From Plectonema cf. radiosum LEGE 06105 (GTDB lineage Bacteria; Cyanobacteriota; Cyanobacteriia; Cyanobacteriales; Nostocaceae): a stretch of 41,588 nt of DNA. The position numbers and the translations under genes are program-made. The stretch's first letter is position 1; each line of letters begins with the position of its first letter. The notes below the pieces were generated by a model. That model worked only from the letters and a program-made list of their open reading frames with translations. It had not been told where the DNA came from and searched no databases. Of this stretch, positions 22,499-39,287 are shown piece by piece. Where the stretch lies: positions 1-41,588 of the forward strand of contig NZ_JADEWL010000055.1 in NCBI RefSeq assembly GCF_015207665.1. The letters run 5' to 3'.

Positions 22499-24700
22499 AT
22501 GGTTACTTGTATGAAAAGTTTATTCGCGCTCCCAGCGATTGTTTCTAGTGTTATTGTTACAGTTTTGTTACTTAGTGTTCAGCGATTTGGAGTTTTTCAG
22601 ACATTTGAACTGAGAGTTTTTGACCAGATGATGCAAATGCGTGCAGATTCGGGATCGGACTCTCGCTTATTGATTGTTGCTGTAACTGAAGAAGATATCA
22701 GAAGATGGGGTCATCCTTTATCTGGTGAAGTTTTAGATAATCTCTTGGCTAAACTCACAGAATATGAACCCAGAGCCATTGGTCTAGATATTTTTCGCGA
22801 TATACCTGTGGAACCAGGTCACAATAAACTATTAGAACGCTTAAAGTTAGATGATTTGATTGTTCCTATTTGCGAACATTCTGAATCGGGTAAGCCTGCA
22901 ATTCCACCACCTACAGGAATTGAAGCCGAAAAAGTGGGATTCAGCGATATTGTACAAGATACCGACGGAACAATTCGTCGTAATTTACTATTGCTAGAAC
23001 CTGCTGCAAACGACGCTTGTAAAGCTGAATTTTCTTTTAGTTTGCAACTAGCGCTTAAATATCTTGCTGTTGGAGGTATCCAAGCGCAATTCAACTCTAG
23101 AGGTGATTTACAACTTCGTGATGTTGTATTTAAACCCCTCGAAAGTCACTTTGGCGCTTACCAAAATATTGATGCAGGAGGCGACCAAATCTTGCTTAAC
23201 TATCGTTCTTCTCAACAGGTTGCTCAACAAATTACTGTTACAGATGTGCTGACAAATAAAGTCAGTCAAGATTTAGCCAAAGACCGTATCGTCTTAATTG
23301 GTTCAACTGCACCAAGTCTAAAGGATATTCAAAAAACCCCCTATAGTAGCGGTAAATCGGACAACTCTGGCGATATGACAGGAGTTATGATTCATGCTAA
23401 TAGCATAAGTCAGATTCTGAGTACAGTTCTCAACGGACAATCGCTATTTTGGTCTTTTCCTGAATGGGGTGAAGCAGGTTGGATATTAGTCTGGAGTTTT
23501 GCTGGAGGATTTATTGCATTAAGTTTCCGACATCCAGTACTGTTGGGAATTGCAGGAGCCGGAGCTTTGACAATTTTATTTGGCAGTAACTTTTTTATCT
23601 TCACTCAAGCAGGTTGGGTTCCTGTTATCACTCCTGCTTTGGGATTGGTGTTAGCGGGGGGAAGTATTATTGCTTACAGTGGCTATCAAAGCAAGCTCTC
23701 TCAAGAGATAATAGAACAAAACCTTAAGGATAGAGAAGAAGCCATTGCCCAATTGCAAGCTATGTTAAGGGAGAAAAAAAGTCAGTCAAATGAAGAAACA
23801 GAGATATTTTATCCCATAGGACAAGAGCTTCTATTAAACACACTAGTGGACAATCGCTACAAAATAACTAAAAGTCTTAGTTTTGGGGGATTTGGTCGTA
23901 CTTATTTAGCTGAAGATACCAAACGTCCTGGTAATCCTATATGTGTAGTAAAACAATTCAAGCCACCTCATAATGTTCAAGACGAAAATTCTTTGAAGTT
24001 GCTTAAACGCGCATTTGAAACTGAGGCAAAAGTTTTAGAGGATTTAGGCAAACAACACAACCGAATTCCTCAATTGCTGGCTTATTTTGAAGACACTCAG
24101 CAATTTTATTTAGTGCAAGAATATATTAAAGGACAACCTCTTGACAAAGAAATTTTTCCTGGTCAGAAATTGCAAGAATTTCAAGTTGTGCAAATACTCA
24201 AAGAAATATTACAGATACTTGTTTTCGTTCATGGTCGTCATATAATTCATGGAGATATTAAACCAAGTAATTTGATTAGACGAGAATCAGATGAAAAGAT
24301 TGTTTTAATTGACTTTGGTGCGGTTAAAGTAATTCAATCATTACAGACTGAAAATCCACCTTTTGAACAGCAAGAAAATCAGGAATTGAGATTTATTTCT
24401 CGTGGATACGCACCTCCTGAACAATTTGAGGGACAGCTAAAATATAGCAGTGATATTTATGCATTAGGAATAGTAGCCATTCAAGCTTTATCTGGAGCAG
24501 ATCCGACAACCCTGCGTCCAGGTCAAAATAATGCGATAGAGATTGTACAAACCCACAATCATGAAAGTCGAAAGTATTGGCGGGAGCAAGTTCAAGTCAG
24601 TGACAATTTAGCTTTGGTATTAGAAAAAATGGTAGACATTGATTTTACTAAAAGGTATCAGTCAGCAGAGGAAGTTCTTGATACTTTGAAAAGTCTGTAG
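22499..24700 (+). CDS. CHASE2-domain serine/threonine protein kinase
   Basis: A 733-residue membrane sensor kinase. An N-terminal membrane helix (about 8-28) is followed by an extracytoplasmic CHASE2 sensor domain (about 30-300: LLIVAVTEEDIRRWGHPLSG, PRAIGLDIFRDIP, DGTIRRNLLL). Three membrane spans come next (about 320-395), then a coiled coil (about 398-425). The C-terminal Hanks-type kinase (about 450-733) has glycine loop SFGGFGRTY, ATP lysine Lys485 (VVKQF), catalytic loop HGDIKPSN (Asp586), DFG at Asp605 and APPEQ. The HRD arginine is glycine, as in many cyanobacterial kinases, so it should still be active but not activation-loop-gated in the classical RD manner. It would phosphorylate Ser/Thr in response to an unknown periplasmic cue. 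The start could also be the ATG at 22511. It is convergent with the TPR gene at 24803. Confidence 0.9.
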   Translation: MVTCMKSLFALPAIVSSVIVTVLLLSVQRFGVFQTFELRVFDQMMQMRADSGSDSRLLIVAVTEEDIRRWGHPLSGEVLDNLLAKLTEYEPRAIGLDIFRDIPVEPGHNKLLERLKLDDLIVPICEHSESGKPAIPPPTGIEAEKVGFSDIVQDTDGTIRRNLLLLEPAANDACKAEFSFSLQLALKYLAVGGIQAQFNSRGDLQLRDVVFKPLESHFGAYQNIDAGGDQILLNYRSSQQVAQQITVTDVLTNKVSQDLAKDRIVLIGSTAPSLKDIQKTPYSSGKSDNSGDMTGVMIHANSISQILSTVLNGQSLFWSFPEWGEAGWILVWSFAGGFIALSFRHPVLLGIAGAGALTILFGSNFFIFTQAGWVPVITPALGLVLAGGSIIAYSGYQSKLSQEIIEQNLKDREEAIAQLQAMLREKKSQSNEETEIFYPIGQELLLNTLVDNRYKITKSLSFGGFGRTYLAEDTKRPGNPICVVKQFKPPHNVQDENSLKLLKRAFETEAKVLEDLGKQHNRIPQLLAYFEDTQQFYLVQEYIKGQPLDKEIFPGQKLQEFQVVQILKEILQILVFVHGRHIIHGDIKPSNLIRRESDEKIVLIDFGAVKVIQSLQTENPPFEQQENQELRFISRGYAPPEQFEGQLKYSSDIYALGIVAIQALSGADPTTLRPGQNNAIEIVQTHNHESRKYWREQVQVSDNLALVLEKMVDIDFTKRYQSAEEVLDTLKSL

Positions 24701-24738
24701 TAAATAAATTTTGAATCCCATAAAACAAACAGCAAAGT

Positions 24739-24762
24739 AGCGGTAATTCATGAATTACCGCT
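24739..24762. terminator. Perfect 24-bp palindrome between convergent genes
   Basis: AGCGGTAATTCA and its exact complement form a perfect inverted repeat midway between the kinase stop and the convergent TPR gene stop. It could act as a bidirectional transcription end; it also resembles dispersed GCGGTAATTC palindromes of cyanobacteria. Confidence 0.6.
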
Positions 24763-24802
24763 AGGCAAGAATCACTTTTTCAGTCACATATTGCGTTCTT
24801 AC

Positions 24803-25495
24803 TTAATTTATTCCAGATTTCAGTTCTTTATTATAAACAGAATCATATATCATATTTTCTGGAGCAATATCCATTGCAGTATTGTAATCTTCTATTGCTT
24901 TGTGTCTATCACCCAATTCTAAGTAAGTTTGACTGCGACAAAAGTAGAATAGAGGATTATCAGGATTCATATTAATTGCTTGAGTATAATCAGCAATTGC
25001 TCCTTCTTTATCTCCTAGTTTATTTTTACGAAAATAGGCTCGTTCGCTGTAAATTTTGGCATTATTGGGATGAGTGCGAATTGCATTATTGAAATTTTTT
25101 AATGCGCCGTCAATGTCTCCTTGTGCAAACTTCTTATAGGCTTTTTCAATGTATAAGATACATGGTGAAGTTTCTTTGTGATTAGAATAAACTTCGATGG
25201 GCTTTTCTGTAATAGCTTGTGAGGAATTTTCTTCTATCAGCTTCTTATTAGTTTTTGTGGAAGCACGACGAAAAGGAAAAAAGGGTGAACTCAATCCTAA
25301 AGTGAACCCAACTCCACCAATCAAAAGCATTGCTAACAGATTGTTGTGATTATTACCTTGATTTGGAGTAACTGTTGTTGCTTGAGCGACAGTTTTTTCG
25401 GAAAATAAATTAGCTTTAACAGGCTGGATATTGCCTATATTCATGAAAAAAAACGTTAAAATTAAGAATTTTTTTGGCAGTTGTTTCACTTTCAT
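24803..25495 (-). CDS. Membrane-anchored TPR protein
   Basis: A 230-residue protein. A hydrophobic N-terminus ending VKA (about 8-29) looks like a signal peptide or anchor, followed by a second possible membrane span at about 52-72 (LLAMLLIGGVGFTLGLSSPFF). From about residue 107 there are three tetratricopeptide repeats with the usual spacing (YKKFAQGDIDGALKNFNNAI, DKEGAIADYTQAINMNPDN, DRHKAIEDYNTAMDIAPEN). TPRs bind partner proteins. It lies 101 nt downstream of the TpsB gene on the same strand, so co-transcription with the secretion transporter is likely and a role as an accessory or scaffold is plausible. The enzyme or partner it serves cannot be identified from sequence. Confidence 0.85.
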   Translation of the reverse strand: MKVKQLPKKFLILTFFFMNIGNIQPVKANLFSEKTVAQATTVTPNQGNNHNNLLAMLLIGGVGFTLGLSSPFFPFRRASTKTNKKLIEENSSQAITEKPIEVYSNHKETSPCILYIEKAYKKFAQGDIDGALKNFNNAIRTHPNNAKIYSERAYFRKNKLGDKEGAIADYTQAINMNPDNPLFYFCRSQTYLELGDRHKAIEDYNTAMDIAPENMIYDSVYNKELKSGIN

Positions 25496-25596
25496 GTTTT
25501 ACCTATTATGTAGAGACAATTAATTTAAAATTCATCAACAATGAAGGACTAAAGTTTTAAAAAATCAATGCTTCATCCTTCATGATTTATCTTTGA

Positions 25597-27330
25597 TTAA
25601 ATTCGGTAGCCAAGACTGAAGTACAAACCATCATCTTGGATATTGTCACCCCGGTCGTCTAAATTAATCAAGGGAAGACCGTAATCTAAGCGCACATTCA
25701 TACGTGGTAGGGGTTTCCATAACACTCCTACTCCCGCACCTGCCAAAAATGTTTGATTTGGTTGGGTGTTGGGATTTTCATTCGCATTCCAAATAAGTCC
25801 TGCATCCACAAATGGTGCTACTTGCAGTACGGCGTTTCCAGATGCATCTTTTTTAACTGTAATTCTGTCTTCTACTGACAATCTCAATCCGTTGTCACCG
25901 CTGCGGACATTTTGACGAAAGCCGCGCACTGATTGACCACCACCGATGACAAATTGCTGAGAGGATAATAAAGGGTTGGGTGTTAATTGTAAGTCTACTT
26001 GGGCAATTAAGAAATTATCATTGTTAAGCTTTTGTACCCGTTGTCCTTGTACCAGCCAACTAACAAACTGACCATCGGGACTCGAATCAGAAGTTTTAGT
26101 CGCGTTTAATAACCCAGTACCAAGACTAAATTGCGATCGCACTCCCCAAGCACCTTTTTCATCCCGCTTTACATAGTCTTGTCCGAGTTTAATGACGCGG
26201 GTACGGTTATCGGTAGCCGATGGAGATAATGCTGTGGAAAATTCACCATTTTGTACGGAAAAACCTACAGATAAAGCAAATTCTTCACGGATTGAACGCA
26301 TCAATGGTTGACGAAAACTGATTTCATACAATTCTGACTCACCGCGAATATCAAACTGATCAAAAGGAGCTTGAGTAATTTCATTATTATTAATCACCCC
26401 TCGCATCTGCAAAGTTCCATCCATCGCATTCATCGGTAAGCTATAGTTAAAGTCATAAATGCTTGAACCGCCTGTGAGACTGCGGTAATAAGCACCAGAA
26501 ATTTCGTCCCCAGCACCAGTGGGGTTGCGATAAACAGCGCTTACACCCAATCTTTCCGAACCAATGCTGGCTGGAGAATAGTTATCAAAACTCACTTGTG
26601 CATCAAACTGTTTTGCTTCGGTGACTCGTACTCTCAAAATACTTTGACCTTCCCCAGTACCAGGACGCAAGCTAGCTTCTACGTTCTTAAATAAAGGGTT
26701 AGACTTCAATATTCTTAACTCGTCTTCTAATTTAGCGGCAGAAAGCGGTGTACCAGCACCTTTGATAATTCGCGATCGCACAAAATTAGGTTGCAGACGA
26801 CGGGTTCCTTGAATTTCAACATTTTCTAAGCTACCTTCAATTACTCGAATTTGCACTATGCCATCGGTAATTGTTTGCTGTGGTAAAACCGCTCTGGAAG
26901 TTAAATAGCCTTGGTTTAAATATAACTGGGTGATATCATCAGCAAGTTTTTGTAGTTGTTCTAAACTAACAGTACTTCCTTCTACTCCCTGAGTGATGGA
27001 ACTAAGTTTCTCGACGCTGAAAATAGTACTACCCTTAACTTCAACTTTTTTGACTTCAATCTGCTCGGATGTCTGTGCTGGAGTTGTTTCTGGGGCTGGA
27101 ATTGGCTCTAATTCTTGTTCCGGTTCAGAGGGTAACGGTTGTGGATTGAGTGGGGGTTGTACAAAGCGTTCTCTATTGGCATCACCTTGGGGATTTGGTG
27201 CTTGTGCTAATGTTTCAACTTGATTTATATCGTTCAGTTGAGCATAGCTTGGAGATGCAAAGGCAACCAAGACGGCACTGGGAGCTAACAACAGCCACGA
27301 TGACACTCCCAGCTTAAAATTATATTGCAT
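25597..27330 (-). CDS. TpsB two-partner secretion transporter (ShlB/FhaC/HecB family)
   Basis: Outer-membrane beta-barrel pore that recognises a TpsA exoprotein in the periplasm and exports it. The 577 residues contain a signal peptide (about 1-30, ending SYA), a Pro/Glu/Gln-rich linker (about 45-88), two POTRA domains (about 90-240: VKKVEVKGSTIFSVEKLSSI and LENVEIQGTRRLQPNFVRSR), and a barrel with the family motifs VRGFRQ (the VRGY/F lock residue region) and FVDAGLIW. The C-terminus FSLGYRI lacks the common final phenylalanine. It is divergent from the TpsA-CHAT gene across a 462-nt gap, the classical arrangement of a cognate pair in either orientation. The paired TpsA is therefore very likely its substrate. 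Confidence 0.93.
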   Translation of the reverse strand: MQYNFKLGVSSWLLLAPSAVLVAFASPSYAQLNDINQVETLAQAPNPQGDANRERFVQPPLNPQPLPSEPEQELEPIPAPETTPAQTSEQIEVKKVEVKGSTIFSVEKLSSITQGVEGSTVSLEQLQKLADDITQLYLNQGYLTSRAVLPQQTITDGIVQIRVIEGSLENVEIQGTRRLQPNFVRSRIIKGAGTPLSAAKLEDELRILKSNPLFKNVEASLRPGTGEGQSILRVRVTEAKQFDAQVSFDNYSPASIGSERLGVSAVYRNPTGAGDEISGAYYRSLTGGSSIYDFNYSLPMNAMDGTLQMRGVINNNEITQAPFDQFDIRGESELYEISFRQPLMRSIREEFALSVGFSVQNGEFSTALSPSATDNRTRVIKLGQDYVKRDEKGAWGVRSQFSLGTGLLNATKTSDSSPDGQFVSWLVQGQRVQKLNNDNFLIAQVDLQLTPNPLLSSQQFVIGGGQSVRGFRQNVRSGDNGLRLSVEDRITVKKDASGNAVLQVAPFVDAGLIWNANENPNTQPNQTFLAGAGVGVLWKPLPRMNVRLDYGLPLINLDDRGDNIQDDGLYFSLGYRI

Positions 27331-27792
27331 AAAATTTATTTTTTTCTTTTAATTGCGCGTAAAAATCGCACAATCATCTTAAGTATTAAACATCAGAAAC
27401 GAAAGTATTATTTTGACCTTTTCAATAAATAGTTATAAAAGAATATATGTAATTTTGAAATCTATAATGACTTGGTTGAAAATTAATGCAAACTGGAGAT
27501 AAAAGCAGATTAAAGGGTTATTCTAATAGTAAATAATCTATTTTTTGCATAAATCCCCACTAATAAAATTTTATTTATTTAGTTCCAAATATACAATTAT
27601 TTTTGGAACTATTCTGATATGGTATTAGTGTTTTTACTGACACTAACTAAATAAGAGTTTTACTTTGTAACGAGAAATATTGCAATTCAAAGTTATGCCC
27701 TTCGGCACTAGTTTGACCAATGTTATGAATGCGTTCTGAAGTCTCATTACAGTTCAACACAACATACTATTTTAACTTATAAAAGGAATTCT
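27331..27792. promoter_or_regulatory. Divergent promoter region of the TPS pair with two inverted repeats
   Basis: No gene is seen. Both secretion-system genes must start here. A perfect 9-bp inverted repeat, AGTTCCAAA (27581-27589) and TTTGGAACT (27602-27610), is a candidate operator. A second one, TTAGTGT (27625-27631) and ACACTAA (27640-27646), follows directly. AAGGA about 8 nt before ATG at 27793 is the tpsA ribosome-binding site. The promoters themselves could not be assigned. Confidence 0.5.
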
Positions 27793-30700
27793 ATGTATTT
27801 GTCTCCTAAGATTAATTTACTATTACTGATAGGCGCGATCGCTCAAATTCTTGCTCTCGGAATCGGTTTTACCCCAGCACAAGCGCAATCAATTAAGCCT
27901 GCTGCTGATGGTACAAATACCCAAGTTACAACCAAGGGTAATCAAATAGATATTAATGGTGGTACTCGTGCTGGTACAAATCTTTTTCACAGCTTTGAAA
28001 AGTTTGGTTTAAATCAAAACGAAATTGCTAATTTTCTTACTACTCCCGATATTCAAAATATTTTAGGGCGTGTAGTAGGTGGTAATCCTTCGGTAATTAA
28101 TGGTTTAATTCAAGTTACAGGTGGCAATCCTAACTTGTTTTTGATGAACCCGAATGGTATCTTTTTTGGTCCTAACGCCATTCTAAATGTACCTGCTGAT
28201 TTTACCGCCACTACCGCTACCAATATTAGTATTGGTGAAAATTGGTTTAATGCTTTTGGCGTGAATAATTATGCAGATTTGACAGAAAGTCCCAACGGTT
28301 TTGTTTTCTCTAATCTTCAACCCGGAAGCATAGTTAATGCTGGTAAGTTAGCTGTAAGTTCCGGAAGTAATTTAAGATTATTTGGCGGTACAGTTGCAAG
28401 TACTGGAGAATTATCAGGAGGTAACGTCACCGTTGCCACAGTTCCCGGAGAGAACTTCTTACGTATCACTCCTCAAGGACATTTATTAAGTTTAGAAGTC
28501 CCCGCTTCGGTTACATCTAATAATACATCAGTTGCTAGCTTACCCCAATTATTGACTGGTAGTGGTTTAGCAAATGCTACAGGATTAACAGTTAACAACG
28601 GACAAGTAGAACTGACGGGTTCTGGTAACAGTGTAAATACTGGGGATGTAGTAGCGAATAAAGTCACTGCTGGAAATGCAACTCTGTCAACAGAGAAGAA
28701 TTTGACACTTGTAGAAAGTCAGTTGCAAACAACTGGCGATTTAAATTTGTTGGCGAAAGATACAGTATTTGTACGTGATAGTCTAGCAAATCCTTTTGTG
28801 GCGATCGCCCGAGGAAATCTTTACGTTCAAGGAAATCAGAATATTGATATCCTGGCGCTGAATCATCCCCAGATACCGTTTCAAAGTGGGGGAAATCTCA
28901 GCTTAGTTAGCGATGGCAATGTTTCTGGTGATGCTCATTTTAGTAGTGGTGGGCAGTTTAAGATTAGTAATTTATCCGGTGAACCTGGTAATTTTGTCAG
29001 TCTTTTTGACCCGATTATTAGGGCTAATGGGGATGTAGAATTTGCTAATTATAGTGGTGCGGCATTGAAGGTAGAAGCGACGGGTAGTATTAAAGGTGGA
29101 GATATCACTATTACTTCACCAGATACTAGCGATAGTATTCCTAGCTCTGACCCAGATTTTACTGCATTGACTACTACTAATGCTTTGATTTTACGGGCTG
29201 GCTTGGATTCGGTAACAAATCCAGATAATCTTCCCGTGAGTGTGGAAGGAACACCTTTTGGAACTCCAAATAGTGCTTTGCAGCCATTAGGAAGTATTCA
29301 AGTAGGTAATATTCGTACAGGTACTTTGTTACCAAATCAAGATGGTGGTTCTGTAAATTTACAAGCTACGGGTAATATTGTTACAGGAAATATAATATCA
29401 GGTGCATATGTTTCTAATGAACGTGCTGGCAGGGGCGGTGCAGTTAGCATAACTTCTAGCAATGGCAGTATAACCACTGGAAATATAAATGCCAATTCAT
29501 ATTCTAATGACAATACCAATACTTTCTCTAGGAAAGCAGGAAATGCAGGTACAATTACCCTCTCAGCAGCGAACAATATCTCTACAGGATATATAGATAC
29601 AACTTCTATCTTTCAAGGTTTTATTGACGGTTTTAGTTTTGATTTTGATAATGTTACAACAGGCGATGGTGGTAAAATTAGCATTACTACTACCAACGGA
29701 GACATTAACACAGGAGTTCTCTTTTCAGGTGCATACGCAGAAGAGGGAAATGCAGGCAATGGTGGTGATATTAGCCTAAGTGCCAATAACGGCAGTATAA
29801 CCACAGGTGCCATTGTATCAGCTACAGTTTCAGCAGAATATGGTGATGTTGGTAGCGGTGGTGACATTAATATCTCAGCCAAAGGTAATATCAATACAAA
29901 AGCTACAGGACTATCCTCTTTTACCGGACAAAATTATTTCAGCAATATTGAGAATATAGCTAATTTATCAGATTACGATAATTTGACGACAGGAATTGTA
30001 GCATCAGCTGCATATGCGGCAGAGGGTAATACAGGCAATGCTGGTACAATTAATATTACTTCAACTGAAGGTACCATTACCACTGGATTTATCGCATCAA
30101 TTGTTGGCGCGGGAGACTTAGATGATATAAGTAACGTTGGTGCAATTACGTTGAATGCTCAAGGTGATATTATTACGGACTTGATATTCTCATTATCTGG
30201 TAATGGCGGGACTATAAATATTACTTCTACAAACGGTAGTATCACTACTGGAGCTTTATTATCAGTCGCAGCATCCGGAGAGGATGGTGTTGCTAACGGA
30301 GGAGATATTACCATAAATGCCAACAACGGTAGTATTACCACTGGACCTTTATTCTCAGCGGGCGCAAGTGCTGAGAGTGACGAGCAAGATGTAAATTCTA
30401 GCAAAGGAGGAAATATTACTCTTAATGCTAAAAATGATGTGACTGTAGGCGCGATTGGATTATCTAAATACCTAGAAGAGTTCGATGCAAGCTATCAGGA
30501 TTTGGATATTTTCGCAGCCTTGGACGATATTGCTTTGGAATTGGGCTTTAACGAAGGCGAAGTAGATGTTCGCACAGTATTAGATAATATCGATAATATC
30601 ACTTCAGGATTTATCATCTCAGCCACAGGCGTAGATTCTGGAGATATAAGTAGTGGTGGTGCAATTAATATTACTTCCACTGAAGGTAGCATAAAAACTG

Positions 30701-33048
30701 GATTTACGGCATCCATTGCAGGGACGGGAAATGGTAATGCAGGCAATGGCGGTAATATCACCATGACTGCCAATAATAATATTACTACAGGAATAATATT
30801 CTCAGGCACAGGTACGGGAAATGGTAATGCAGGGAATGGCGGTAATATTAGCTTGAAAGCCAGCAACGGTAGTATTACTACCTCGCCTTTAATTTCAACC
30901 ACCTTATCATTAGATGGGAGTACAGGTGATGCTGGTGCAATTACCCTGGAAGCTAAAAATGACGTGAAAGTAGACACTATTGGTTTTACTACATTAGCTG
31001 AAGGAATTGATTTAGACAATGACATTATAGATAGCCTCGCAGCCTTGGATAACCTCACCAAAGGATGGATAATATCAACCACAGTTGCTGGTAATGGTAA
31101 CGCTGGGAATGGTGGTGCAATTAATCTTACTTCAACTGAAGGTGGCATTACTACAGGACCTATAACTTCAGTTGTATACGCCAACGATGGTAGCGCAGGC
31201 AAAGCAGGCGATATTAGTTTAAGTGCTAAAAATGACATATCCGCCGACTTACTAGCCTCTGTTTCCTACGGCAGCGAGGACGACGATGAAGTTATTAGTG
31301 GAAAAGGTGGTAATATTACAGTCACTACTGACAGTTTCTTTCGCGCTCCTCAAACCCTTGGAAACTTGTCGTCCGAATTTTTAGATCAACAGCAAGTGAT
31401 AAATGACGAGGATTTGAAATCCGAATTAAAAGATTCACTCGAAGACTTTGAAAATTACAGCATCGGTTCCTACGGAAGAGCTGGTAGTGGTTCCATTACG
31501 ATTCAGCACGGAGGAAATGGGAATGTACCTTTTGTGGTGGGTGATGCAACTAAAAACGGTATTGCTGGAGATATTATTACTGGAGGGTTTCTCGATGGCT
31601 TGTATACCGAAATCTCATCTACTCAAACTTTTCCAGGTAATTTTACAAAAGGGAAGATTGAAATTATTACGCAAAACCAGGATGAAATTCCTGAAGAGAT
31701 TAAACGCTCAGCAGAAGCTACACCCAACCAACAACTACCCACCAACTCTATTCCACAACTTGAAGTTGATACCCTTGTTGATCAAATAGAGCGGCAATTC
31801 ACCCAACAGTTTCTGGAATTTGGGGGAGACGACAACGTTGAAATTAAAACAGTACAAGACACCCAAGGTTTACTCAGCAATATCGGAAAAACAACAGGTG
31901 TCAAACCAGCAGTTATCTACACCACATTTCTACCGGAAACATACGTGGCTGGTAGTAGCTTAGTTCGTCAAGAAAAAGACACCGATGTACTCAACATCAT
32001 TATCGTTACAGCAGAAGGACAACCCATCCGCAAACAAATCAAAGGCGCTACCAGAAGCGAAGTTAGCCGAATTGCACGCAGATTTTTGAGAGAAGTTGCT
32101 AATCCAAGAAAAGCTAATAGCACCGAATATTTAGCTCCTGCAAAGCAACTGTATGAATGGCTAGTTAAACCCTACGAAGCCGAGATACTTTCTCTTGATG
32201 TCAAAAATTTGATGTATATTATGGACCCCGGTTTGCGACATCTTCCCATTGCAGCTCTTCACGATGGTAATCAGTTTATCATTGAAAAATACAGCATTGG
32301 ATTGCTTCCCAGCATCAGCCTTACTGATACCAGATACGTAGGGGTACAAAACAGCAAAGTCTTGGCAATGGGTTCACCAACATTTACCCAAGACCAAAAT
32401 CAAATTGATTTACCTGCGGTACCTATAGAACTTTCTACCATTGCTGGGAACTTGTGGGAAGGTAAATACCTATCCGGCAAGAATTTCACCTTAGACAATC
32501 TCAAAAGCGAACGGACTAATACTCCATACGGTATCATTCACCTCGCAACCCACGCCGACTTCCCCAGTGAAAGGCAGGGAGGACGCAAGGAATCATACAT
32601 CCAGCTTTACGACAGTAAACTACGCTTAGAAGATGTACGCAAGCTAGGATGGAATAACCCACCAGTAGAGTTGTTAGTACTAAGTGCGTGTCGTTCGGCT
32701 TTAGGAGACTTTGAAGCGGAATTAGGTTATGCAGGATTAGCCATACAAACTGGTGTCAAGTCAGCAGTAGCAAGCTTGTGGTTTGTCTCGGATGCAGGAA
32801 CTTTAGGAGTGATGACCGAATTTTATCGTCAGTTGAATAAAGCACCAATTAAAGCCGAAGCCTTACGACAAACACAATTAGCTATGCTTCAAGGTAAAGT
32901 GCGAATCGAAGGTAATCAACTGATTGGTACTAACGGTAACGTTACTCTCTCACCGGAACAAGCTGAGTATTTACGAAATAACATTACTGGTGAACTTTCT
33001 CATCCATATTATTGGGCATCCTTTACTATGATTGGTAGTCCTTGGTAA
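27793..33048 (+). CDS. TpsA-type exoprotein with C-terminal CHAT (caspase-like) protease domain
   Basis: A 1,751-residue secreted protein. A signal peptide (about 1-32, ending AQA) is followed by the filamentous-haemagglutinin N-terminal secretion domain with both TPS hallmarks, NPNL (112-115) and NPNGI (119-123). A long beta-helical passenger (about 180-1250) is built from glycine- and asparagine-rich repeats such as GNAGNGGNI...ITTG, broken by three similar inserts near residues 700-735, 895-940 and 1065-1095 (GLS..LEEFD-like). After a linker (about 1290-1345) comes a CHAT domain (about 1345-1751) with the catalytic pair His1587 in HLATHADF and Cys1633 in LSACRSALGD and the usual end HPYYWASFTMIGSPW. 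The protein is predicted to reach the cell surface through the divergent TpsB. A CHAT peptidase on a TPS passenger suggests extracellular proteolysis, self-release or cell-death signalling; the target is unknown. Confidence 0.93.
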   Translation: MYLSPKINLLLLIGAIAQILALGIGFTPAQAQSIKPAADGTNTQVTTKGNQIDINGGTRAGTNLFHSFEKFGLNQNEIANFLTTPDIQNILGRVVGGNPSVINGLIQVTGGNPNLFLMNPNGIFFGPNAILNVPADFTATTATNISIGENWFNAFGVNNYADLTESPNGFVFSNLQPGSIVNAGKLAVSSGSNLRLFGGTVASTGELSGGNVTVATVPGENFLRITPQGHLLSLEVPASVTSNNTSVASLPQLLTGSGLANATGLTVNNGQVELTGSGNSVNTGDVVANKVTAGNATLSTEKNLTLVESQLQTTGDLNLLAKDTVFVRDSLANPFVAIARGNLYVQGNQNIDILALNHPQIPFQSGGNLSLVSDGNVSGDAHFSSGGQFKISNLSGEPGNFVSLFDPIIRANGDVEFANYSGAALKVEATGSIKGGDITITSPDTSDSIPSSDPDFTALTTTNALILRAGLDSVTNPDNLPVSVEGTPFGTPNSALQPLGSIQVGNIRTGTLLPNQDGGSVNLQATGNIVTGNIISGAYVSNERAGRGGAVSITSSNGSITTGNINANSYSNDNTNTFSRKAGNAGTITLSAANNISTGYIDTTSIFQGFIDGFSFDFDNVTTGDGGKISITTTNGDINTGVLFSGAYAEEGNAGNGGDISLSANNGSITTGAIVSATVSAEYGDVGSGGDINISAKGNINTKATGLSSFTGQNYFSNIENIANLSDYDNLTTGIVASAAYAAEGNTGNAGTINITSTEGTITTGFIASIVGAGDLDDISNVGAITLNAQGDIITDLIFSLSGNGGTINITSTNGSITTGALLSVAASGEDGVANGGDITINANNGSITTGPLFSAGASAESDEQDVNSSKGGNITLNAKNDVTVGAIGLSKYLEEFDASYQDLDIFAALDDIALELGFNEGEVDVRTVLDNIDNITSGFIISATGVDSGDISSGGAINITSTEGSIKTGFTASIAGTGNGNAGNGGNITMTANNNITTGIIFSGTGTGNGNAGNGGNISLKASNGSITTSPLISTTLSLDGSTGDAGAITLEAKNDVKVDTIGFTTLAEGIDLDNDIIDSLAALDNLTKGWIISTTVAGNGNAGNGGAINLTSTEGGITTGPITSVVYANDGSAGKAGDISLSAKNDISADLLASVSYGSEDDDEVISGKGGNITVTTDSFFRAPQTLGNLSSEFLDQQQVINDEDLKSELKDSLEDFENYSIGSYGRAGSGSITIQHGGNGNVPFVVGDATKNGIAGDIITGGFLDGLYTEISSTQTFPGNFTKGKIEIITQNQDEIPEEIKRSAEATPNQQLPTNSIPQLEVDTLVDQIERQFTQQFLEFGGDDNVEIKTVQDTQGLLSNIGKTTGVKPAVIYTTFLPETYVAGSSLVRQEKDTDVLNIIIVTAEGQPIRKQIKGATRSEVSRIARRFLREVANPRKANSTEYLAPAKQLYEWLVKPYEAEILSLDVKNLMYIMDPGLRHLPIAALHDGNQFIIEKYSIGLLPSISLTDTRYVGVQNSKVLAMGSPTFTQDQNQIDLPAVPIELSTIAGNLWEGKYLSGKNFTLDNLKSERTNTPYGIIHLATHADFPSERQGGRKESYIQLYDSKLRLEDVRKLGWNNPPVELLVLSACRSALGDFEAELGYAGLAIQTGVKSAVASLWFVSDAGTLGVMTEFYRQLNKAPIKAEALRQTQLAMLQGKVRIEGNQLIGTNGNVTLSPEQAEYLRNNITGELSHPYYWASFTMIGSPW

Positions 33049-33182
33049 TAGTTTTTTAGGGTGCATCTAACTTAAAATGTTGAATTTGTAGTAGCAGTTG
33101 CTAGCCCTGTGTGCGAAGACAGCGCTACTACAAACCGAAAAAACTTGAATTAATTAGATTTAGTGTGAGGATTATTAAAATT

Positions 33183-34154
33183 ATGAATAAATTTCAGTTG
33201 AGCGTTTCTCTGCTCGGAATCAGCATTGCTTCTTTGTTTGCCAATTCTATGACTCAAAAGGTATTTGCTACAGAAGTACCAATAGAAATAGCAAATCAAG
33301 AAATCAACGCTCAAGCCCAGACTCAGCTTTCTCAAGGAACTATTTCTTACAGTGCAGCAGATTTAGCACCCCAGACAGACTCATCTTTAGATAATGTAAT
33401 TGCTCAAAGACTCATTGACTTAGAAAATTTTTGTCAAAAAACTCCTAACAATTCAGTCTGTATTGAGTATCCAACTCCATTCGTACAAGGGCAGGTAGTC
33501 GAGCCTCAACAAGAAGAGACACAGAAAACCAAAACTAACGGTTGGGCTGTAACTCCGGAAATTAGTACTTTAGGTTTGGGTGCATCCGTCACTAAGTCCG
33601 TTTCAGACAAAGTAAACGCCAAACTAGGTTTAAATGCCTTTTCTTTAAATGCTGGAGAGATTGACGCAGAGGATACTACCATTGAGGCAGACTTAAAACT
33701 ATTTAACGTCTCGACTCTAGTTGATTACCATCCGTGGAAAAAGTCTGGTTTTCGCATAACTGGTGGCTTGGTATTCAATGATAATAAAGTGAAAGGAGAC
33801 GTGAAGGCTAACGGTGGCGAGATTGAAATTAATGGCGAAAGATATAATACAGATGAACTAGGTTCGGCGAAGGTAAAAGCTTCGTTTGCTAATAATGTTG
33901 CACCTTATATCGGTATCGGTTGGGGAAATGCAGTTAAACCTGGTAATCGCTGGGCATTTTCATTTAACTTGGGTGTAATGCTTACTGGTTCACCATCAGT
34001 AGATATTACACCTGAGTTTGGTCCAAGTGCAGATGAAACTATTAAAAACGAAATCAACAGCAATATTGCACAAGCAGAGGAAGACATCAAGGATGAGATT
34101 GACTGGTTAAACGTTTACCCTGTTCTTTCTTTGGGCGTGTCTTACCATTTCTAA
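33183..34154 (+). CDS. Outer-membrane beta-barrel protein
   Basis: A 323-residue exported protein. ATG at 33183 gives a normal signal peptide (MNKFQLSVSLLGISIASLFA, with cleavage after VFA about residue 29). The open frame extends 24 codons upstream, but that stretch is basic and lacks a signal, so it is rejected. A variable N-terminal segment (about 30-115) is followed by alternating beta-strands in the C-terminal 200 residues (NAKLGLNAFSLN, FNVSTLVDYHPW, FRITGGLVFNDN, APYIGIGWGNAV, WAFSFNLGVMLTG, VYPVLSLGVSYHF). The final Phe is the usual BAM-recognition signal. It lies 134 nt after the TpsA-CHAT stop on the same strand and may be co-transcribed. A role as a surface receptor or accessory to the secreted protein is only a guess. 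Confidence 0.82.
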   Translation: MNKFQLSVSLLGISIASLFANSMTQKVFATEVPIEIANQEINAQAQTQLSQGTISYSAADLAPQTDSSLDNVIAQRLIDLENFCQKTPNNSVCIEYPTPFVQGQVVEPQQEETQKTKTNGWAVTPEISTLGLGASVTKSVSDKVNAKLGLNAFSLNAGEIDAEDTTIEADLKLFNVSTLVDYHPWKKSGFRITGGLVFNDNKVKGDVKANGGEIEINGERYNTDELGSAKVKASFANNVAPYIGIGWGNAVKPGNRWAFSFNLGVMLTGSPSVDITPEFGPSADETIKNEINSNIAQAEEDIKDEIDWLNVYPVLSLGVSYHF

Positions 34155-34240
34155 TTTTTGAATGCGAATCGAATAAAAATGTTGAATTTTTAAGGGCTGT
34201 CTGGGCTAAAGTGCGACTAAAAAAAACTGATGTCTTGCAT

Positions 34241-34311
34241 GGGCTTTGTGTTGTTTTTGAGTTGAAGTTATGGTTGACAACAACTCTACTACACAAAGTC
34301 CTCTTTTTTTT
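34241..34311 (+). terminator. Large Rho-independent terminator after the OM-barrel gene
   Basis: GGGCTTTGTGT (34241-34251) pairs with ACACAAAGTCC (34291-34301), and GAGTTG (34259-34264) pairs with CAACTC (34281-34286) inside it. An eight-T run follows at 34304-34311. It lies 86 nt after the stop of the OM-barrel gene and probably ends the tpsA-barrel transcript. Confidence 0.75.
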
Positions 34312-34759
34312 GACGAAGGTATTGTGCAAAAAACCAGGTTTCTGTTTCTCAACAACTTAAATGATTACATCATATATAGCAATCCTAAATGACTTGTGAG
34401 AAATTTATGTATAATCTGGCGGTTAAAACCGCTACTACACCTTCCTAAGTCCACCTGCGTGGACTCTATAAAACAACCCGCCTACGCGGGTTTTGCCTGT
34501 GCAGCCAAGGCAGCGCGCAGAAGGGGTGGTCTCCCCCATGAGCGACTGCCGTGCGACTTATAGTCGCCAGGAGTGATTTAAATGTAATCTCTATTCCTAA
34601 CTTTTAATCTACGTATTTTCTCACATCTCAATTCGGATTGCTATAGAAGGATGCCTAATACCTTGATAAGATGATGATTCATGCAGTATGTTTCGCTTTT
34701 ATTTGTAATGAGATAAAAAACATAAAAAGTTAAGATAAGATAAGGAAACGTCTAACAGA
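34312..34759. other. Gene-free region with three palindromic repeats
   Basis: Hairpins GCGGTT-AA-AACCGC (34419-34432), AGTCCAC-CTGC-GTGGACT (34448-34465) and AACCCGC-CTAC-GCGGGTT (34475-34492) sit close together, followed by a GC-rich segment to about 34575. They look like nested dispersed palindromic repeats. No coding sequence is seen. Confidence 0.65.
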
Positions 34760-34834
34760 ATGAAATTACCTAATGGTGAATATGCAGAAATTTCGATGCA
34801 AAAACTCATAGGCTACTGCTTAAACCTCGTTTAA
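34760..34834 (+). pseudogene. Truncated DUF6883-type gene (24 codons)
   Basis: ATG at 34760 reads MKLPNGEYAEISMQKLIGYC then LNLV and a stop. This matches the conserved beginning of the DUF6883 family (MKLPNG...KLxxYCLN), whose members are about 110 residues and often precede a DUF4926 gene, as here. Everything after YCLN is missing. The assignment rests on recalled family similarity. Confidence 0.6.
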
Positions 34835-34850
34835 TTACTGCATTTATAAA

Positions 34851-35111
34851 ATGAATCAAATTAAACTTCTTGATACTGTCACCAATCTGAATCCTATTTC
34901 CTCTGAACGATTAACTTTAGTGGAACCAGATTATAGTTCTATTTCTTGCTTGCCAAAAGGGCAAGTAGGTACAGTTGTGGAAATTTATCAGCAAACAGAA
35001 AAACCATCTTATTTAGTAGAATTTTGTGATACCCAAGGACGTGAATATGCGATGGCAACTTTAAAAGCTAATGAAATTTTAGTATTGCACTATGAATTAA
35101 GCCAAGCTTAG
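34851..35111 (+). CDS. DUF4926-domain protein
   Basis: An 86-residue protein of the DUF4926 family: an N-terminal IKLLDTVTNLN segment, then LPKGQVGTVVEIYQ and YLVEFCDTQGREYAMATLKA followed by ILVLHYE, a small SH3-like beta fold. Genes of this family are common in cyanobacteria, usually next to DUF6883 genes, and have been suspected to be toxin-antitoxin or immunity-like pairs; function is unproven. The partner just upstream (34760-34834) is reduced to 24 codons, so this may be an orphan on its way to decay. The N-terminal 25 residues are longer and less conserved than the family norm, which may mean the true start is internal. Confidence 0.75.
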   Translation: MNQIKLLDTVTNLNPISSERLTLVEPDYSSISCLPKGQVGTVVEIYQQTEKPSYLVEFCDTQGREYAMATLKANEILVLHYELSQA

Positions 35112-35189
35112 AAATCAATTCCTTCTGGTAAGAATAACCCGTTGGTGCGTGACACTACAAACCTTATTTTTACGTTCAAGTACTTCAAA

Positions 35190-35334
35190 ACCAACATTTA
35201 CCCAAGTCCAAAATCAAATTGATTTACCTGCGGTACCTATGGAACTTTCTACCATTGCTGGGGAACTGTGAGAAGGTAAATACGTATTTGGTGAGAATTT
35301 CACCTTAGACAATCTCAAAAGTGAACGGGTTAAT
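35190..35334 (+). pseudogene. Fragment of a second CHAT-domain gene
   Basis: A 145-bp stretch aligns without gaps to 32376-32520 inside the CHAT domain of the TpsA-CHAT gene, with about 14 mismatches counted by eye (roughly 90% identity). It corresponds to residues around 1530-1576 (PTFTQDQNQIDLPAVPIELS and on). It carries an in-frame TGA where the intact gene has a tryptophan codon (LW to L-stop). It ends abruptly and no more of the gene is present, so it is debris of a paralogue or of a partial duplication. Confidence 0.9.
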
Positions 35335-35392
35335 GGTTAGAAGCGCAAGGTTAAAGGTTGAAATTGATAATTCTTAATTCCTAACTCTTAAC

Positions 35393-35425
35393 AAAAAAGC
35401 CCCAGAATATTTCCAGGACTTTTTT
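35393..35425. terminator. Possible bidirectional terminator
   Basis: AAAAAAG (35393-35399) pairs with CTTTTTT (35419-35425), with a short, imperfect CC/GG extension. It lies between the convergent DUF4926 and DUF928 genes. The stem is A/T-rich and modest. The rest of 35335-35590 shows no gene. Confidence 0.4.
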
Positions 35426-35590
35426 ATTAAAGGTGCAGTTTTTTTACTTAGGGTTTGCTGTATCGCCATGAATGTAAGCGTTTTCTCACTACTACCTACT
35501 CACTTACAAGTCAGAGCCTGGGAAAGAGCCAGTACAGGAATTTGAGCGAAGCGAGGGTGCCATTAGTCTAATAAAAAACGAGATTCTACT

Positions 35591-36541
35591 TTACTGCGAC
35601 GGTAAAAGAGGAGCGTTGATTACATCTTCTTCAAGGTTTACCGTTCCTAACAAATTTCCCCATTCAATATTGATTTCTTCATCTTGAGGACGCTGACGAC
35701 GTAAATCGGCTATAGTTCTCAAACTATCTTCCCAATATCCATTTTCTGCATATAATACTACACGGTCTAGGGGTGAGGCTGCTTCAAATTTGTTGGTTAA
35801 TTCTGGGTTTGGCTCTTCTCGTTTAATCAAACCTTCTGGATAGTCTTCGTCGCCTCTGTCAGTATCTACTAAAATACTCCAACGATACTCTTTATTGGCT
35901 TCTAAAGGTAGTTTGTCCCTAGGAAGAACTACGCTAATGATACCAGGCTTTTGAGGAGGCTTGAAAGTTAGTTCATATAAAATATTCTTATTATCATTAT
36001 CCTTCAATTCAAATAATAGTTTTTCTTCTGGGGATATCTGAGGAATATAGAAAAAGAATGTAGGATACTTTGCTGTTGTTAAGAATAATGATAGTGATTC
36101 TTCACCAGTTGCTTGTTGAGTCGAGGAGCATTTTTCCTCATATGTTGGTATCAAAGGAATCAGGTCACTGCATTGCCCTCCTCTGGTTGCTGCACCCGTT
36201 CTTCTACGAGGTTTTCCTTTTCCAGAGACTTTACCATATCTCTCAACACGCCTTTGATAACGTTCTACATTGCTAATCGCTCCTAGAGCATAGCTATCTC
36301 CAGGACGTTGCCCTAATGCAAGCCGGAAGTAATTTAATGCTCTGCCGTATTGTCTGCGTCTGGTTGCAGCGTACCCCTCCTGCATATATTGGTCATATTT
36401 AGATTTTCCTTGTGCTAATAAAACCGAAGACTTCATAGAATCTGCTGCTGAGAACTGATTGAAAATTACAGACGTAAGCAAACCAGCAGAACCCATTAAT
36501 AAAACCGCAAGTAGATATTTCAACCTAAGTTTTTGTTTCAT
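35591..36541 (-). CDS. DUF928-domain exported protein
   Basis: A 316-residue protein with a signal peptide or N-terminal anchor (about 8-32), a short TPR-like motif (YMQEGYAATRRRQYGRALNYF then RLALGQRPGD, about 54-84), a basic linker (GKGKPRRRTGAATRGG) and a DUF928 domain (about 120-300: CSDLIPLIPTYEEKCSS, YPTFFFYIPQ, LTFKPPQKPGIISVVLPRDK, YRWSILVDTD, AENGYWEDSLRTIADLR). DUF928 proteins of cyanobacteria are often encoded near CHAT and CHASE2 genes and two-partner secretion proteins, as recalled from family context, and this locus fits that pattern. The molecular function is unknown; periplasmic location is inferred. The frame begins one codon earlier at a TTG, and ATG at 36541 is preferred. 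It is convergent with the DUF4926 gene. Confidence 0.87.
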   Translation of the reverse strand: MKQKLRLKYLLAVLLMGSAGLLTSVIFNQFSAADSMKSSVLLAQGKSKYDQYMQEGYAATRRRQYGRALNYFRLALGQRPGDSYALGAISNVERYQRRVERYGKVSGKGKPRRRTGAATRGGQCSDLIPLIPTYEEKCSSTQQATGEESLSLFLTTAKYPTFFFYIPQISPEEKLLFELKDNDNKNILYELTFKPPQKPGIISVVLPRDKLPLEANKEYRWSILVDTDRGDEDYPEGLIKREEPNPELTNKFEAASPLDRVVLYAENGYWEDSLRTIADLRRQRPQDEEINIEWGNLLGTVNLEEDVINAPLLPSQ

Positions 36542-36578
36542 CAAAATGGTATCTATTTGTATTAATATTTCACCGAAT

Positions 36579-37241: not shown

Positions 37242-39263
37242 TTATGGCTGTTGATTAGTTGCCCATTTAATCCATTGCCATAGAGAACCCAAGCCATTTA
37301 CATAGCCTATACCTGGAGCTTTTGTCGCAACCAAAGCATCTGCCGCTCTTTGAGCAGCATATTGCAAGCCTAAGAATGTATCAATCGCAGCATAAGGACC
37401 ACCCAAAGTTAAAACCCCGGAAACATACATTCTGCCGCGAATATTTCGCATCTCTTTCATTTCAAAGTCTTTAGCAGCTTGCAAACCACCATAAGGAGAT
37501 AAAGACAAGTTATAGCGGCTAATCAAATCTGCAAATAAAGGGTTGTTCTGAGGTTTAGCTTCCAATCCTGTAGAGTCAACAATAAAATCTGCTGCTACCT
37601 CTAACAACCCTTTCTGAGTTCTGATGTAAGAAAGAGGTTTTCCTTCGTTATTGCGTTCTACTTTTTCTACTTGACCAAACTCAATACTGTACCACCCAGA
37701 ATCTAAACCTTCCTGAATAATTTTTTTCCAATCTGTACGGTCCGCTGTAGTAGTTCCACCCCAATCTTTAAGTAATTCATAACGCTTTGCAGGGGAAGCT
37801 GCTTCTAACATCGAACGCATATCACCCCCCCAAGTCGCTTTGGGCCAGTTATATGGCTGGAATTCCCAGTGATTTTCAACTTTACGTTGAGCCGAGCCGA
37901 ACTTCTGACCTTCTTTAACAGGGGTACGCATCACATGAATAACGGTAATTTTAGGATTCTTCCGTCTTGCTTCGGAAATTCTTTGGATAATTCGAGATGA
38001 AACAATCCCTCTACCCCGAATAATTAGCGTCCCACCCCGACTTTCTAAATGTTTGTAAATATGGTTATGTTCTTCGTAGGCATTAACTACAGATTTAAAA
38101 TCCTGCGTGTCTTGCCGATATTTCTGCAAATCAGGTAAAAACCTAATAGCTGGATATCCTGTAGCAATATGTACATAACGACCTACCAAATACCCATGAG
38201 ACCGTTCCGAAGCATTAGGGACAGAATAGGCGATCGCATAACGACCATCGGTTGTTTTACGGATAGCTCGGATACGACCATACTTAAGCATCGAAGACCA
38301 GCCAATACGTTCAGCTTCTCGGTCGATAGACTCAAAAACTTTTCCTGACATGGGAGTATAAGTATCTGCAACCACTGGCTCGGCAAAAACCTGCCACAGA
38401 TGCTTTAGCGCAGAACTAACTTCACCAGAAAACAGTTCTCGCCAAGCTTCTCGCCAAGCATAACCTGGCCAACCCCAAAGATTATCAGGGCAAGAATCAG
38501 AACCAGAGCGCAATCTTTCATGGGGAGGAATTTGAGAATTTTCACAAAGACGCTGGTAACGTCCATATGGTTTTTTTTCTAAACCCAGAACAGTAATTTT
38601 ATCTGGCTTGACTCCATAAATTCTGATGTGGTCTACCCATGCAAAACTACCAATACCCCCTCCCAAAGCAACATATTCTTGCTCTTGGACAGGTTTTCCT
38701 GTAGCATAAAGAGATTGCACATCTACAAACTCTGATGCCATAAATTCCCTTGATGGGAAAGAAGTTAACTCTGGGGATTCCGAAGTTACAGTTATGGTAT
38801 CTGGCTTGTCAGTTTCTGGGTTAAAGACAATAGTTGCAGGTGGAGATTGATTTACTTGTTGACCAAAATTAACAACCTCGGTTTGTGGATTTAATATGGT
38901 TGGAGATTGATTGAGGATTTCCGTACCCTCAATCTCCTTGTTCAAACTTACACTTACCTGAAATGGTCCAATTTGAAGCGTATCTCCACTTTTGAGAGGA
39001 CGACTGGATTTTTGTAATAAATTCCCGTTAACCCTTGTACCATTAGTACTTATGTCCTTAATTGTTAACTCACCGTTAACAACACAAATTAGGGCGTGAA
39101 AAACAGAAATCTCTCTGCTTTTGAAAACTACTTTAGACAAAGATTGCTCTTCATAAGTATCGGGTATACCTACTGCTTCTCGACCTATTCCTAAAGGAAT
39201 AGTAAAAGAATGCTTTTGCAGTTCTTGATTACCGGGGTCTTCCCAGGTTAGTATTATTTCCAT
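37242..39263 (-). CDS. FHA-domain fused to flavin-dependent oxidoreductase-like domain
   Basis: A 673-residue protein with an unusual architecture. The N-terminal FHA domain (about 1-110) has the conserved GR (27-28), SVFH and TNGTRVNG residues that bind phosphothreonine. A Thr/Pro/Gln-rich linker follows (about 110-190). From about residue 196 comes a Rossmann fold with the dinucleotide motif ALGGGIGSFAW (GGGIGS at 201-206), then a long FAD/NAD(P)-binding region with YVHIATGYPAIRF, GTLIIRGRGIVSSRI and DFIVDSTGLEA, which resemble the FAD/NADPH motifs of flavoprotein monooxygenases and lycopene-cyclase-like enzymes. No signal peptide is seen, so it is probably cytoplasmic. FHA domains read Thr phosphorylation, so activity or location may be kinase-controlled. 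The reaction is unknown. It follows the FHA/zinc-ribbon gene by 24 nt. Confidence 0.85.
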   Translation of the reverse strand: MEIILTWEDPGNQELQKHSFTIPLGIGREAVGIPDTYEEQSLSKVVFKSREISVFHALICVVNGELTIKDISTNGTRVNGNLLQKSSRPLKSGDTLQIGPFQVSVSLNKEIEGTEILNQSPTILNPQTEVVNFGQQVNQSPPATIVFNPETDKPDTITVTSESPELTSFPSREFMASEFVDVQSLYATGKPVQEQEYVALGGGIGSFAWVDHIRIYGVKPDKITVLGLEKKPYGRYQRLCENSQIPPHERLRSGSDSCPDNLWGWPGYAWREAWRELFSGEVSSALKHLWQVFAEPVVADTYTPMSGKVFESIDREAERIGWSSMLKYGRIRAIRKTTDGRYAIAYSVPNASERSHGYLVGRYVHIATGYPAIRFLPDLQKYRQDTQDFKSVVNAYEEHNHIYKHLESRGGTLIIRGRGIVSSRIIQRISEARRKNPKITVIHVMRTPVKEGQKFGSAQRKVENHWEFQPYNWPKATWGGDMRSMLEAASPAKRYELLKDWGGTTTADRTDWKKIIQEGLDSGWYSIEFGQVEKVERNNEGKPLSYIRTQKGLLEVAADFIVDSTGLEAKPQNNPLFADLISRYNLSLSPYGGLQAAKDFEMKEMRNIRGRMYVSGVLTLGGPYAAIDTFLGLQYAAQRAADALVATKAPGIGYVNGLGSLWQWIKWATNQQP

Positions 39264-39287
39264 AATTGTGACTATAGAGTAAATATA

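Follow-up and report, generated by a model that had tools for sequence, protein, structure and literature searches.

What would a caspase-like protease domain do at the end of a protein that appears to be built for export, and does it work together with the genes around it? The question is raised by a locus of the cyanobacterium Plectonema cf. radiosum LEGE 06105, on a stretch of 41,588 nucleotides (contig NZ_JADEWL010000055.1) that we call the window. One of its open reading frames joins a two-partner secretion (TPS) domain to a CHAT domain, and its product is referred to here as TPS-CHAT. An original prediction, made from the DNA letters, had proposed that this locus places a caspase-like protease outside the outer membrane. 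We lean towards the view that a CHAT cysteine protease is exported as the C-terminal domain of a TPS exoprotein, in a recurring envelope module that signals through CHASE2 receptors. All the parts belong to known families; what would be new is that an envelope module with a receptor joins TPS exoproteins to CHAT proteases.

Pfam placed TPS (PF05860) at residues 38-316 (121 bits against a cut-off of 33.5) and CHAT (PF12770) at residues 1448-1749 (217 bits against a cut-off of 24) of the same 1,751-residue frame. Together with the motifs NPNL (residue 112) and NPNGI (residue 119), and the catalytic motifs HLATH (1583-1587, containing His1587) and LSAC (1630-1633, containing Cys1633), this confirmed that TPS hallmarks and a CHAT catalytic pair share one frame, as had been predicted. 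From N- to C-terminus the protein consists of a signal-like N-terminus (hydrophobic by a simple score), the TPS domain, a long repetitive passenger (approximately residues 320-1290), a linker, a helical adaptor and CHAT. The passenger is assumed to be of the beta-helix type; a search of this region for tandem DNA repeats found none at a score of 40. Pfam detected TPS and CHAT alone in the protein, with no TPR and no anti-sigma domain.

The C-terminal part (residues 1297-1751) was modelled with AlphaFold2 using 47 aligned relatives, in all of which His1583, His1587 and Cys1633 are invariant. The model had a mean pLDDT (predicted local distance difference test) of 93 and a pTM (predicted template modelling score) of 0.91. 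When it was compared with the PDB by Foldseek, the 16 top rows were of the CRISPR craspase type by title, most being titled Csx29 or TPR-CHAT and two merely 'bacterial protein complex'; the best of these rows had an E-value of 1e-14 and a TM-score (template modelling score) of about 0.5 by query length. Separases, DdvA and gingipain RgpB (E 1e-4) followed in lower rows and, weakly, caspases (E 2e-3); a sequence-profile search of solved structures with CHAT found no relatives. The original prediction had looked to a structure model for the catalytic fold, and the fold was there: by the model, the CHAT part has the caspase/separase fold with a complete His-Cys dyad, and protease activity is predicted.

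The architecture is widespread. The CHAT part found matches in 70 of 142 cyanobacterial genera, or 113 of 386 genomes (E 1e-45 or better). Around such matches we collected loci by hand, mostly the best-scoring one per genome, and most domains in them were called at E 1e-5 with local hidden Markov models (HMMs) that had been built on the proteins of the window itself, so that diverged members are missed. TPS and CHAT, the combination that the original prediction had proposed to search for in cyanobacteria, shared one frame in 36 of the 40 CHAT-centred loci; once 20 further loci were added, deliberately including short frames, the fusion was present in 45 of 60. It was found in none of 27 control loci, which contain one CHAT, one TpsB fragment, two kinases and one noise-level TPS match. 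The fusion (36/40 loci against 0/27 controls) is thus more than chance. The fused frames ranged from 754 to 3,600 residues.

The cysteine content of these proteins is unusual. Cys1633 is the sole cysteine in the 1,751 residues of the window protein. Among 59 non-redundant fusions (copies of one gene from two loci were dropped), the CHAT region always held exactly one cysteine, the catalytic one (59 in 18,987 residues); there was one cysteine from the TPS domain to the C-terminal end in 34 of them, and one in the whole frame in 27. Comparison frames of at least 400 residues without such domains, taken from the fetched loci, contained 8.8 cysteines per 1000 residues (2,652 in 302,537). Loss of all non-catalytic cysteines from CHAT, with the catalytic one kept, fits an export-competent enzyme without disulfides. 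Sister loci encode CHAT as a protein of its own, which has a signal-like N-terminus and lacks TPS. A second cysteine, within a stretch resembling FCxGxGLR, was noticed in short TPS-less CHATs (L180, L181, L182, L184, L187 and L189; L numbers denote loci and G numbers genomes) and is absent from the TPS-fused CHATs. Two cysteines in CHAT were also seen in L164 and in one L151 frame.

Some TPS-CHAT frames open with a GT2 glycosyltransferase domain (L099:11409-16877, L137:4371-9239, L146:8968-14025, L149:9299-14320, L186:8569-15012 and, by eye, L156). These have an internal hydrophobic signal-like stretch followed by TPS; the reading comes from Pfam for L099, and from motif and hydrophobicity for the five frames with coordinates, L099 among them. 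Either a real fusion or a misplaced start would account for them.

When the window protein was compared with eight relatives, identity was 54-84% in TPS and 55-83% in CHAT, against 30-51% in the passenger, with the split between TPS and passenger inexact for L013 because the TPS match extends into the passenger. Passenger length in this set varied from 745 to 2,330 residues. In a CHAT tree of 80 rows, made by a quick method with midpoint root and with many inner branches unsettled, all 59 fusions fell on one side of a supported branch (96 in the Shimodaira-Hasegawa-like approximate likelihood ratio test, SH-aLRT). The same side also took in short TPS-less CHATs and a few frames that are truncated. 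TPR-CHATs from other TPS loci lay outside the fusion branch, and CHATs fused to CHASE2 were distant.

CdiA is a TPS exoprotein with a C-terminal enzymatic domain, and TPS-CHAT has the same layout. It could then be a contact-delivered effector of the CdiA kind, whose arm would bind a neighbouring cell and whose CHAT would enter that cell. With FhaB/FhaC and CdiA/CdiB (type Vb) it shares the signal-like N-terminus, the TPS domain with NPNL and NPNGI, the repetitive passenger and a partner of the ShlB/FhaC type, and modules with TPS and CHAT as separate genes are found on plasmids typed conjugative. Unlike FhaB and CdiA, however, TPS-CHAT ends in a conserved caspase-fold protease domain, many TPS-CHATs have no adjacent TpsB, and DUF928 and CHASE2 partners are present in some loci. 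The C-terminus is not polymorphic, as the CHAT identities above indicate, and inspection of 11 loci by eye revealed no recurring small partner gene save DUF928, which itself has a signal-like N-terminus. Contact-dependent inhibition was set aside because of this conserved C-terminus, and we give delivery into neighbouring cells very little credence.

The closest solved folds, the craspase CHATs, would fit another reading, in which TPS-CHAT is an effector of phage defence or cell death, akin to other CHAT systems, and the TPS domain is incidental. The CHAT of craspase has a His-Cys dyad, and the CHAT fold is common to TPS-CHAT and to the TPR-CHAT/Csx29 of type III-E CRISPR. The two differ in that TPS-CHAT lacks TPR and is built for export, and no Cas domain was found among the 10 window proteins scanned with Pfam; a link to craspase was rejected on the absence of Cas and TPR domains. 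The kinase part of a neighbouring protein did score with PADLOC kinase models, but these look generic and the CHAT segment had no PADLOC match at E 1e-3, so a defence-library label was rejected too. The cysteine pattern and the N-termini speak against a cytoplasmic place, and a defence role appears very unlikely.

Two other known proteins offer parallels. DdvA signals through a periplasmic CHAT. The fold of this transmembrane anti-sigma factor (PDB 8rot and 8rw5) matches the CHAT model, but TPS-CHAT has no Pfam anti-sigma domain, its dyad is complete, and receptor and protease are separate proteins. Gingipain RgpB is an exported caspase-fold protease that uses another secretion route; it belongs to a different family and matches the model weakly. 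In the open-access literature, CHAT combined with TPS or hemagglutinin terms gave no paper (one could exist elsewhere), nor did CHASE2 with CHAT domain or TPR-CHAT with periplasmic, and DdvA with CHAT gave unrelated papers alone.

The genes of the locus are as follows.

22499-24700, plus strand: CHASE2 sensor fused to a Ser/Thr kinase (Pfam)
24803-25495, minus strand: TPR protein between the CHASE2-kinase and TpsB, a possible accessory (Pfam)
25597-27330, minus strand: TpsB outer-membrane exporter with POTRA_2 and ShlB domains (Pfam)
27793-33048, plus strand: TPS-CHAT exoprotein, 1,751 residues (Pfam, motifs, AlphaFold2 model, Foldseek)
33111-34154, plus strand: predicted outer-membrane barrel, directly 3' of TPS-CHAT (CarO match below cut-off)
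35591-36544, minus strand: DUF928 protein with a signal-like N-terminus (Pfam)

The TpsB gene is full and divergent from that of TPS-CHAT, as had been claimed, with starts 462 bp apart; a divergent TpsB was also found at L009, L010, L011, L013 and L021. The identities proposed for the TPR, CHASE2-kinase and DUF928 neighbours held up by Pfam. The barrel is the least certain part: the Pfam scan gave no match for this gene, and the NCBIfam CarO model scored 70 bits against a cut-off of 300. The inferred topology would make the CHASE2-kinase a receptor with cytoplasmic output.

We then asked which neighbours recur. Of those that had been expected to co-occur, TpsB, DUF928 and CHASE2 recur, a relative of the TPR gene occupies the corresponding position, in like orientation, at L099 alone, and the barrel recurs in none of the loci fetched. 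A barrel HMM matched just three copies of the same gene (window, L007 and L053); the barrel is probably not a constant part of the module and was rejected as a partner. The kinase was rejected as a constant partner as well (kinase frames in 4/60 CHAT-centred loci against 2/27 controls). Relatives of the window TPR gene were also noticed 4-6 kb from TPS proteins in L024-L026, from named Nostocales, where no CHAT was found; L025 and L026 contain a close relative of the window DUF928 gene too.

The genome of the strain itself (G000, 7.6 Mb) contains 53 CHAT, 12 TPS, 8 ShlB and 8 DUF928 matches, one ShlB place being weak, one DUF928 place lying below the family cut-off and another passing only with its neighbours. 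The CHAT matches include open frames of more than 2,200 and more than 1,500 residues. A distance of at most 15 kb separated 7 of the 8 ShlB, 8 of the 12 TPS and 7 of the 8 DUF928 places from one of the 13 strongest CHATs, and for ShlB the random expectation was 0.39. Eight loci of this genome hold a CHAT with TPS or TpsB, some of them ending at contig ends. All five parts (TPS, TpsB, CHAT, DUF928 and CHASE2) were present in four of these (the window, L033, L037 and L040); L034 and L038 had TPS, TpsB and CHAT, L036 had TPS, CHAT and DUF928, and L039 had TpsB and CHAT. Four other TPS loci (L035 and L043-L045) were without any other part. In the window, one fusion links the exported-type CHAT with the TPS protein and another links CHASE2 with the kinase. 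In the other module loci of this genome the exported-type CHAT has a gene of its own and takes the form of a TPR-CHAT of 850-980 residues; in L033, where the five module genes are co-directional, and in L037, CHASE2 is fused C-terminally to a second CHAT.

It could be argued that the parts have no joint function, TPS-CHAT being an orphan exoprotein and its neighbours chance company in a genome with 53 CHAT matches. TpsB, DUF928 and CHASE2 are indeed missing near many TPS-CHAT genes, and a plasmid stretch of Nostoc sp. TCL26-01 has TPS and CHAT without the other three. The placement of 7 of 8 ShlB matches near CHAT, against 0.39 expected, and the joint presence and absence of the parts across 16 small genomes (below) make chance company highly improbable.

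Other genomes gave a similar picture. In L099 (G019) the gene order and orientation of the window are kept, with TPR included and the barrel absent, and in L156 (G300) the CHASE2-kinase, TpsB, TPS-CHAT and DUF928 are all there. In a family of genomes of 1.6-3.7 Mb (f25), each of 12 CHAT-bearing genomes had DUF928 and CHASE2 no more than 15 kb from CHAT, with DUF928 within 1.6 kb in 7 of them; TpsB lay within 15 kb in nine, on another contig in two, and was not found in one. Of four more loci read in this family, L173 and L175 contain CHASE2 and a DUF928 relative along with TpsB and TPS-CHAT; this set recurs in L174, except that no TPS domain was detected in its CHAT frame, and in L176 a CHAT and a DUF928 relative alone were found. 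In four further f25 genomes a CHAT of this type, CHASE2, a DUF928 relative and ShlB were all not found; these had been drawn from the ShlB-negative list, so that absence of TpsB there is by choice, and CHASE2 and DUF928 played no part in choosing them. At the level of whole genomes, CHAT was found in 30 of 30 shared genomes with ShlB and in 1 of 9 listed without it (Fisher 1.5e-7), with 7 further ShlB-negative genomes outside this count. The exception is G137, in which a TpsB-like frame adjoins the CHAT (L174).

The five parts also travel together on plasmids, being found on three of the five plasmid stretches viewed. In Nostoc sp. UHCC 0302, a plasmid typed conjugative has CHASE2, DUF928, TPS, TpsB, CHAT and a second TPS gene in succession on one strand, and the product labelled 'S-layer family protein' there contains a TPS domain. 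Two Gloeothece strains have CHASE2, CHAT, TPS and TpsB-type genes on plasmids, with a DUF928-like gene that is weak (22 bits), and the plasmids of Nostoc sp. TCL26-01 and Kovacikia minuta have TPS, TPR and CHAT without TpsB, DUF928 and CHASE2. In the plasmid records listed, TPS and CHAT are annotated as separate adjoining genes. An unannotated record, Kovacikia minuta plasmid pA (L217, 9908-14303), has TPS and CHAT parts in neighbouring frames of 454 and 990 residues. A gene for a MinD/ParA-like ATPase was seen to adjoin TPS-CHAT and CHASE2 at L137:3584-4348, L177:11625-12413 and L191:10191-10952 (by Pfam for L137 alone).

An exported CHAT might serve the surface by itself, as a surface or shed maturation protease that cuts its own arm or adjoining TPS exoproteins and so releases or remodels sheath or adhesins, with DUF928 and CHASE2 loosely linked. 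CHAT does stand at the C-terminus after a variable and often Pro-rich linker (by eye), passenger length varies while CHAT is conserved, CHAT-less TPS genes adjoin separate CHATs with signal-like N-termini, and DUF928 and CHASE2 are absent from most TPS-CHAT loci. On the other hand, a receptor is not needed for adhesin maturation alone, and DUF928 and CHASE2 stand near CHAT in all 12 small-genome relatives and on three of five plasmid stretches. We regard maturation alone as unlikely, although less so than the explanations above.

If CHAT is part of a signalling module, DUF928 is the best candidate for its partner, in view of its signal-like N-terminus, its place next to CHAT in 7 of 12 f25 genomes, its predicted beta-sandwich and a conserved Arg- and Gly-rich stretch. 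This stretch, GRRxGGGxRG in the alignment, lies N-terminal of the sandwich; as a guess, it could be a cleavage or binding site. The DUF928 model (pLDDT 82, pTM 0.59) has helices, the beta-sandwich and C-terminal helices, and its fold matches were weak, the best in the PDB being the C-terminal domain of MtxA (E 7.5e-5), then an Ig-like fold (1e-3). Pfam did not detect the three DUF928 relatives in L173-L175; profile comparison to DUF928 gave a probability of 94.6 (E 7e-8), and two of the three match each other by BLAST. For DUF928 the open-access literature gave PMC5587647.

The output of CHASE2 differs by locus. It is a kinase in the window, L099 and L156, a cyclase in L173 (where a nucleotide cyclase occupies the C-terminal end) and L153, GGDEF-EAL in L129, and CHAT in L033 and six others. 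The CHAT-CHASE2 fusions (L033, L037, L114, L115, L117, L180 and L189) have CHAT first, carry AGHS and NSCDG motifs (read by eye) and have DUF928 in the same locus.

On the observed architecture, conserved dyad, one-cysteine pattern and gene association, and on the predicted fold, we infer a model for export, final location, activity, substrate and order of events. The module would consist of TpsB, a TPS exoprotein and CHAT (these last two in one frame or in two genes), an exported-type DUF928 and a CHASE2 receptor with interchangeable cytoplasmic output: kinase, nucleotide cyclase, GGDEF-EAL or, in the cytoplasm, a second CHAT. A signal peptide would take TPS-CHAT to the periplasm, where the TPS domain would engage TpsB and the fast-evolving passenger arm would be threaded outward. 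CHAT, last to cross or retained, would work either at the surface or on the periplasmic face. The arm would sense contact or a surface cue, and CHAT activity would alter in response; CHAT would cleave an exported partner, for which DUF928 is the candidate, and CHASE2 would pass the outcome to the kinase. In its widest form, which we advance only tentatively and hold to be possible rather than probable, this is protease-gated outside-in signalling. A TpsB-borne arm or exported CHAT would act on DUF928, and CHASE2 receptors would give kinase, cyclase, diguanylate or cytoplasmic-CHAT output, in a system that reaches small-genome (picocyanobacteria-like) lineages and is partly borne on conjugative-typed plasmids.

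Protease-gated signalling would be the first role for DUF928 and for exported CHATs, would offer a testable surface-to-cytoplasm route where envelope signalling is poorly known, and would mean that CHAT proteases are no longer purely intracellular. In any case, caspase-fold enzymes whose active sites are complete and which are apparently built to leave the cyanobacterial cytoplasm form a large class, and two orphan pieces, DUF928 and CHASE2 receptors, are tied to exported-type CHATs in part of the genomes. The original interpretation is thus partly supported; the roles it had suggested in kin recognition or cell death found no direct support.

A number of observations weigh against an exported CHAT in a signalling module. 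At the background rate, the chance of no extra cysteine in one 320-residue stretch is 0.06, and the cysteine count is weakened by the shared descent of the 59 fusions. HetF is a cyanobacterial CHAT-domain protein (PMC8406250). It and the intracellular cyanobacterial TPR-CHATs have the CHAT domain in common with TPS-CHAT, and 7-9 cysteines were seen here in four CHATs only, all of another clade and from the strain's own genome. Two of these (L050) are plainly without a signal-like N-terminus, L051 is borderline and L049 is cut. CHASE2-fused CHATs, cytoplasmic by inferred topology, have 1-4 cysteines, and the cysteine contrast is softer because of these low counts and because just four CHATs have 7-9. 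The 'noSP' CHAT class is not a clean cytoplasmic control, as truncated frames fall in it. A simple score alone was used to detect a hydrophobic stretch N-terminal of TPS, and 53 of the 59 fusions had one. Short CHATs with signal-like N-termini and no TPS share the clade, which means that the CHAT enzyme does not depend on TPS export, and a C-terminal CHAT could remain in the periplasm, not outside the outer membrane.

The association with partners is also incomplete. TpsB was found in 16 of 60 CHAT-centred loci (1/27 controls), CHASE2 in 11 of 60 (0/27; p 0.012) and DUF928 in 7 of 60 (0/27; p 0.066). With most TPS-CHAT genes lacking adjacent partners, distant or shared ones must be assumed for many. 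Among 33 TpsB-centred loci of other genomes, CHAT was present in 12, TPS in 14, and DUF928 and CHASE2 in 5 each, and L046 has DUF928 and CHASE2 without CHAT or TPS. The match between ShlB and CHAT across genomes may stem partly from genome size and ancestry. Finally, TPS is much diverged in the small-genome group, where Pfam misses it in L173 and the local HMM gave 34-37 bits.

Further genes of the window were also noted. Two FHA-domain genes lie beyond DUF928 (37242-39773) with sub-cut-off matches to a type VI secretion FHA model, and a HEAT-repeat protein (20365-21579) matches models of phycobilisome lyase and NblB below cut-off.

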